From a virus: 40,729 nucleotides of DNA. The notes below the pieces were generated by a model that was given only the letters and a program-made list of their open reading frames with translations, did not search any database and was not told the origin of the DNA. Made by a program: the position numbers and the translations under genes. Positions 2,527 to 2,866 of this stretch are shown in pieces. The stretch spans positions 1 through 40,729 of the IMG/VR virus record IMGVR_UViG_3300006922_000058; one strand, given 5' to 3'. The first letter of the stretch is position 1, and each line of letters opens with the position of its first letter.

Positions 2527-2676
2527 CCAAGTGGGAGGGACAGTCCATGCTGGGTGCGATACCCAGCTACTGCACTAGGGAAGAAGAAAGTAACTAAATA
2601 TCTGTATGGATGTTTGATACTAAATGTAGTGATTAAGTAAAAGTTATAGAAGTCTTCCCTTATTTTTTTGCCCACT
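2527..2676 (+). ncRNA. structured RNA element 1 (nested stems, U-tract)
   Basis: No ORF of note lies here. An outer helix can form between AGTGGG 2530-2535 and CCCACT 2671-2676. Inside it are a hairpin with stem GCTGGGT 2549-2555 / ACCCAGC 2561-2567 and loop GCGAT, extended by CAGT 2541-2544 / ACTG 2569-2572, and a long-range 8-bp helix AGGGAAGA 2577-2584 / TCTTCCCT 2653-2660 followed by seven Ts at 2663-2669. The last helix plus the T-run could act as an intrinsic terminator with a long loop. Loop bases GTGC 2554-2557 could also pair with GCAC 2572-2575 as a pseudoknot. A TATAAT at 2503-2508 inside the upstream gene could start a separate RNA, but has no clear -35. The family is not recognised. 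Confidence 0.5.
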
Positions 2677-2832
2677 AGAAAATGTTATTTAAATAATGAT
2701 AATTAAGTAAGTGTTAAGGTGGGCAAGATACGACGAGTATATGAGAGGGTATAATAATAATTGTCGGTGAAAGTTCCTTCGGGGATTTTCATTGCCGATA
2801 CCCTCCCATCGTCGGCTCTCTTAGGAGAGCCG
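2668..2832 (+). ncRNA. structured RNA element 2 (C(UUCG)G hairpin inside nested stems)
   Basis: A second dense set of helices. TTGCCCAC 2668-2675 pairs perfectly with GTGGGCAA 2719-2726. CGACGA 2731-2736 pairs with TCGTCG 2809-2814. GAGGGTA 2745-2751 pairs with TACCCTC 2799-2805. Inside lies a long hairpin at 2764-2798 with TCGG/CCGA, TGAAA/TTTCA and a GTTCC/GGGAT tip closed by the ultra-stable C(UUCG)G tetraloop at 2777-2782. A final hairpin, CGGCTCTC 2813-2820 / GAGAGCCG 2825-2832, competes for two bases with the CGACGA helix. The TTGCCCAC arm overlaps the CCCACT arm of element 1, so the two elements can form mutually exclusive structures. I do not recognise a known RNA family. Confidence 0.5.
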
Positions 2833-2866
2833 TATTCAAAATGAAATAATTTTTTTTATTTAAAAT

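Follow-up and report, generated by a model that had tools for sequence, protein, structure and literature searches.

The window, the whole 40,729-nt stretch of DNA analysed here, is a 40.7-kb virus record with genes for terminase, portal, protease, capsid and tape-measure proteins. On its + strand, no gene lies between the stop codon at 2526 of a 234-aa ORF and the start codon at 2929 of an 82-aa ORF, so that the gene-free stretch noticed in a preliminary description of this DNA was borne out, with 2520–2835 non-coding. Its limits, first placed at 2527–2860, shifted: the element really starts at 2520, inside the closing codons of the gene before it, and runs to ∼2832–2835. Outside the RNA, a sigma70-type promoter for the downstream operon (TTGACA-17-TATAGT with TG, 2867–2895, + strand, 11 of 12 consensus positions) is found at the same place in most relatives. 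As had been claimed, the stretch folds beyond chance: + strand 2527–2875 reaches a minimum free energy of −113.9 kcal/mol, whereas dinucleotide shuffles average −76.6 ± 5.0 (z −7.53) and none of 100 attains the natural value. The − strand folds less well (z −4.75), and the sub-elements 2670–2727 and 2728–2835 have z scores of −4.3 and −5.5. The stretch is best read as a locus of phage non-coding RNA, set between a replication-type operon and a late operon. The earlier proposal of a novel phage ncRNA thus stands, except that sequence comparison supports at least two modules rather than a single uncharacterised RNA: one is tRNA-like and carries a terminator-like hairpin, and the other is a conserved small RNA in its own right.

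The small RNA covers 2763–2832 of the + strand, which also bears all RNA features described below. Comparison defines a 5′ hairpin, GUCGG...CCGAU (2763–2799), within which lies the C(UUCG)G-capped hairpin seen earlier; a seed, CCUCCCAUC (2802–2810); and a covarying 3′ terminal hairpin (2813–2832), whose 8-bp helix CGGCTCTC/GAGAGCCG (2813–2820/2825–2832) had likewise been recognised. A −10 box, TATAAT (2750–2755), lies 7 nt before the 5′ end. Six loci were retrieved by the upstream 234-aa protein, and five of them are near-identical in the RNA. In L006, whose 234-aa protein is 54% identical, the helices are kept through paired changes of CGGCTCTC-TTAG-GAGAGCCG to CGACTCTC-TTCG-GAGAGTCG and of CCUUCGGG to CUCGCAAGG. 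Terminase relatives and pattern scans brought this class (class A) to 25 distinct cores. RNAalifold of alignment A4 gave 27 pairs, 8 of them changed on both sides, and the apical hairpin and the terminal pair covary. All 46 distinct sequences have an intact terminal hairpin, in which positions 4–6 show compensatory types (C-G/G-C/A-U exchanges); 318 pairs are formed, compared with 190 ± 10 when partners are shuffled. The preliminary description had set one case against a structured RNA, that of relatives sharing the flanking genes but no conserved pairing; the opposite was seen, since pairing was kept through compensatory changes. The tetraloops UUCG, GCAA and GAAA (UUCG/GNRA types) are exchanged at the hairpin tips, which argues for an RNA on the + strand.

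A covariance model built from the relatives (R1), a step that had been suggested from the outset, scored 106.8 bits in the window (E 3e-23) and found a diverged homologue in L030, syntenically placed in a record whose terminase is 59% identical (18.8 bits; E 0.054 over 321 kb). In that homologue the seed is unpaired and the terminal hairpin forms a genuine terminator. Three classes share the 5′ hairpin, seed and 3′ hairpin and differ elsewhere: class B reads GTCGG-NNTCCACA-CCGAC-CTCCTCCCATCATCG-hairpin, and class C reads GTCGG-CTACTAAA-CCGAC-TTCCTCCCATCATCG-hairpin-U-tract. The terminal hairpin takes the form of an intrinsic terminator in class C, and because no U-tract follows it in classes A and B, their 3′ end is uncertain. 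In all three classes, TAnnnT stands at −12 to −7 from GTCGG; ACC at about −36 to −34 is found in classes B and C and not in class A, where we found no −35 box. As computed, the structured ends and accessible, conserved seed are those expected of a trans-acting sRNA.

How widespread and how conserved is this RNA? A relaxed pattern recovered at least 119 contigs (∼30 expected by chance, an estimate), uncultured and mostly marine viruses, and nearly all that were read showed the same architecture. Four hits were discarded as chance matches in coding sequence: the viral L008 and L011 and, in bacterial MAGs, L071 and L072. To avoid the bias of patterns that fix part of the seed, we measured conservation again on loci retrieved by the terminase alone. 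Among those with at least 1.3 kb upstream, 65 of 67 contained the 36-nt core, in four versions and with the 9-nt seed identical in all, so that the seed is invariant in loci found without using it. Over 300 pairs the core was 98% identical, compared with 76% for terL DNA and 61–65% for the flanks; in 217 pairs with terL DNA below 80%, the figures were 98% for the core, 72% for terL and ∼62% for the flanks. Rfam gave no match at curated thresholds over the whole window, a check named in the preliminary description, and BLAST of INPHARED, PLSDB and E. coli, like Rfam, gave none to the small RNA. At low stringency, Rfam matches to the gene-free stretch and its relatives were at chance level, the tmRNA domain described below excepted, and RAGATH-16, potC, MIR394 and others were rejected as chance hits. 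A core almost unchanged in uncultured viruses and absent from the searched databases looks like a new viral regulatory RNA family, and as an RNA family it is well supported, its mechanism being inferred. Conservation above that of the terminase, together with absence from Rfam and the cultured-phage collection, points to a function that these phages can hardly spare.

Class A has a further feature upstream of +1, a masking strand (2731–2751) whose complementarity to the seed side is kept in 25 of 25 relatives and occurs in this class only. CGACGA (2731–2736) pairs with TCGTCG (2809–2814), the 6-bp clamp already reported, and GAGGGTA (2745–2751) pairs with TACCCTC (2799–2805). Changes in the relatives are G-U-compatible, with one internal mismatch in L052, and in L070 the pairing persists although its register has moved with respect to the −10 box, pointing to selection that acts on the pairing itself. 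In RNA starting at +1, the seed is predicted to be 98–99% unpaired in every class (98% in class A); with upstream sequence it is predicted to be open at 82% in class B, 62% in class C and, with 60 nt, 20% in class A. Thus, an RNA read through from upstream would carry a masked seed and an RNA started at +1 an open one. Alternatively, the two conserved masking helices might indicate that class A acts solely as a single long RNA. A long-range pairing of GGGAGGG (2533–2539) with CCCUCCC (2801–2807), the sole candidate for the pseudoknot suspected earlier in the first element, was rejected because it has no conserved partner in relatives and a tRNA-like fold explains that element better.

This tRNA-like structure (2520–2577), which emerged from folding and whose acceptor and T-arm are rebuilt in relatives, has an acceptor of GCAGUA (2520–2525) paired with UACUGC (2568–2573; 6 of 7 pairs in the window, by hand and fold), a D-arm-like CC-AAGUGGGA-GG (2527–2538), a stunted GGACAGUCC, a T-arm CUGGG-UGCGAUA-CCCAG (2550–2566), and a 3′ end of A2574 followed by CUA (2575–2577), that is A-CUA in place of ACCA. 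In the 15 related class-A loci tabulated (the near-identical L001 was kept apart), we searched for and found an acceptor stacked directly on a 5-bp T-arm, then N73 and CUA or CGA. The GCAGUA acceptor is common to the window and L006, for both of which the script favoured another 5′ strand; relatives have GCCUGUG, CCUUGUG, GGAAUAU, GGGAUAU, GGAAUGA, GGGGGUG or GGGCGUG, and GGAAUAA was read by eye in L053. T-arms differ likewise. T-loops keep C56-R57-A58 in some loci and are degenerate in L044, L058 and the first copy of L066. The fold departs from tRNA in its stunted or replaced anticodon arm and its N-CUA/CGA end, and ARAGORN detected no tRNA or tmRNA in the window or in 24 loci. Two motifs, UGGACACUUGU and (U)UG[C/U]GGGACAG, recur in differently built 5′ domains (L021–L025, L044–L068).

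L066 and L068 carry tandem pairs of tRNA-like copies, and the second copies match Rfam tmRNA (RF00023) in the tRNA-like domain only, with 42.1 bits (E 2e-15) in L068 and 33.0 bits (E 1e-9) in L066, both below the curated threshold of 47 bits. The window's own tRNA-like part had no tmRNA match in the Rfam searches. The L068 and L066 copies align with G3:U70, A73 and the T-arm of tmRNA but lack its tag reading frame and pseudoknots, 12–13 nt replacing ∼280–294 model positions; CUA stands for CCA, further RNA lies 3′ of the tRNA-like part, and the window acceptor lacks G3:U70. YrlA, a bacterial Y RNA, is a tRNA mimic bound by Rsr/Ro60 and likewise a non-coding RNA with a tRNA-like module, but a Y RNA reading was rejected: PF05731 (TROVE/Rsr) was absent from 13 records, the control genome being positive, and no Rfam match was found. 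tmRNAs encoded by marine phages are known (PMC9004378). With tRNA mimics of which some can be traced to tmRNA, the virus appears to rebuild a host RNA fold repeatedly with different sequences.

Two hairpins follow. The long one pairs GGGAAGA (2578–2584) with TCTTCCC (2653–2659) and is terminator-like in sequence (2578–2669), with a T-tract, TTATTTTTTT (2660–2669), at its 3′ side; most relatives have a T-tract after the homologous hairpin, and in L070 and L030 a plain hairpin with T-tract closes the upstream operon at the same place. Its inner motif, UAACUAAAU...ACUAAAUGUAGUG(A/U)UU(A)AGUA(A)AAGUUA, is unusually well conserved and was seen in the window (2578–2659) and in L021–L025, L044–L049 and L058–L068. 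The third hairpin, TTGCCCAC/GTGGGCAA with a conserved inner ATTATTTAAATAATGATAATTAAGTA (2668–2726; z −4.3 alone), has its stem altered on both sides in relatives (GCTCAC/GTGAGC, GCCCAA/TTGGGC, TTACGCC/GGCGTAA, TTATGTC/GACATAA). A possible −10 region for the tRNA-like RNA, TATAATATAAA (2503–2513), lies inside the end of the 234-aa gene. In the window this upstream promoter matches the consensus poorly (7 of 12 positions, a score that 42% of random windows equal), and its sigma70-like counterpart in ten related loci has 9–11 of 12. Its −10 stands at three offsets from the stop codon in relatives, so coding does not explain it.

Which host might carry these phages? WhiB, a protein specific to Actinobacteria, is encoded by all 8 class B/C records and by none of 8 class-A records. 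The capsid protein of the window has actinobacteriophage proteins (∼30% identity) among its best matches, together with others. WhiB-bearing phages of the low-GC marine ‘Ca. Actinomarinales' (host ∼32.5% GC) have been described (PMC7771536, PMC3861242). On these grounds, a marine actinobacterial host is likely for classes B and C and plausible for the window. Highly expressed ncRNAs are reported in mycobacteriophages D29, Kampy and L5 and in Rhodococcus phage WC1 (PMC10986025); these abundant ncRNAs also come from actinobacterial phages and have no assigned role, but they map to terminal or central positions of other phage genomes, and BLAST of INPHARED found no sequence relation to them.

What does the small RNA do? 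We favour, with a probability of roughly one half, a trans-acting sRNA with an anti-Shine-Dalgarno-like seed, accompanied by an upstream tRNA-mimic RNA. Rightward transcription from the −10 box at 2750–2755 would start at ∼2763 and end in or just after the hairpin 2813–2832, and the two hairpins would guard the ends and expose an unpaired and almost unvarying seed, (U/A)CCCUCCCAUCGUC. The likeness of the seed to the anti-Shine-Dalgarno CCUCC suggests that it pairs where translation starts; most likely it would bind Shine-Dalgarno-like GGGAGG in host or phage mRNAs and control their translation. A target search within the window gave best sites no better than those of shuffled seeds. A second, tmRNA-TLD-like RNA upstream would have its own promoter in relatives and end at the terminator-like hairpin; read-through from that promoter may yield the masked seed, and a start at +1 the open one. 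A fuller version, in which read-through of a tmRNA-TLD-related mimic masks the seed and the internal start frees it, retuning the translation of a probably actinobacterial host, seems to us quite unlikely. Known bacterial and phage sRNAs with C-rich anti-Shine-Dalgarno seeds also combine two hairpins, a single-stranded CCUCCC-type seed and a terminator-like 3′ hairpin, but the small RNA has no sequence or Rfam match to them, its whole 36 nt are conserved rather than the seed alone, and class A has its own masking strand upstream of +1. Conservation on this scale goes beyond the requirements of a typical sRNA seed and would suit an RNA bound by protein, or a DNA site. The core could be used to probe metatranscriptomes and perhaps to mark the host, and it provides a phage RNA, putatively aimed at translation, that can be tested.

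Alternatively, the locus may specify one long ornate RNA, ∼315 nt in the window and as much as ∼500 nt in relatives, whose tRNA-like domain, T-tract hairpin, third hairpin and core would fold together into a single ribonucleoprotein scaffold; the short sRNA would then be a reduced form present in other phages. All modules keep one order; class A preserves RNA pairing in the third hairpin and in the masking strand, both of which lie before the +1 of the small RNA; the upstream promoter fits a single start; and the minimum-energy fold of the whole region joins its 5′ and 3′ ends. That long-range helix of the window, however, is not conserved, a T-tract after the second hairpin would stop most transcripts, classes B and C keep the core without the upstream modules, and a −10 box stands directly before it; we therefore regard the long RNA as unlikely. 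Because of synteny with terL, we also kept a DNA element (a pac/cos packaging site, replication site or operator) read by a phage protein. The core is always upstream of terL, at 0.7–2.2 kb in class B and as far away as ∼2.7 kb in class A, and in L117 and L090 it lies between a TerS-like gene and terL; its 36 nt are essentially invariant, and classes B and C contain a GTCGG-N8-CCGAC palindrome. The arms of this palindrome are much further apart in class A, though, and a covarying terminal hairpin with RNA tetraloops, a −10 box at fixed spacing and the U-tract terminator of class C make a DNA site improbable.

Could the region simply be a leader or terminator array of the flanking operons, acting in cis and devoid of trans function? 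It does have terminator-like hairpins after the upstream operon and stands directly before the late promoter. That promoter, however, belongs to the downstream operon itself, which disfavours such an array and with it the cis-regulatory switch of the preliminary description; the invariant unpaired seed, the tRNA-like fold and conservation above that of terL would be left unexplained, and we rate this reading as distinctly improbable. Conservation due to a protein on the opposite strand deserves almost no credence. Class C has convergent minus-strand ORFs that end ...SADDGRKSV inside the small RNA gene (L030 5187–5357, L078, L085, L124, L149), and in that frame the R of CATCRTCG is synonymous. 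But their N-termini are unrelated (charged or membrane protein) and only the overlapped tail is in common; class A and most of class B have no such ORF, the GGG and AGG codons show no variation at their wobble bases although the phages are AT-rich, and hairpin changes are compensatory rather than synonymous. The tail thus appears to be imposed by the RNA. The trans-acting sRNA with its tRNA-mimic companion remains our preferred reading.

In classes B and C, other short ORFs on the minus strand, located upstream of the small RNA, share a tail, ...EDDLP (mostly TEDDLP), on differing N-termini (L030 3915–4109, L084, L090, L099, L112). In class B (for example, L074, L077 and L117), downstream genes have an apparent extended −10 (TGnTAAAAT-like) ∼6 nt before the ATG, which suggests leaderless transcripts. 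Finally, the two CATG words counted earlier in the window (2546 and 22313) compare with ∼137 expected from base composition; over 1–40729, GATC, GTAC and GGCC are absent, and CTAG (128) and CCGG (117) are common, unlike the avoided 4-base palindromes. This selectivity looks like restriction-site avoidance.
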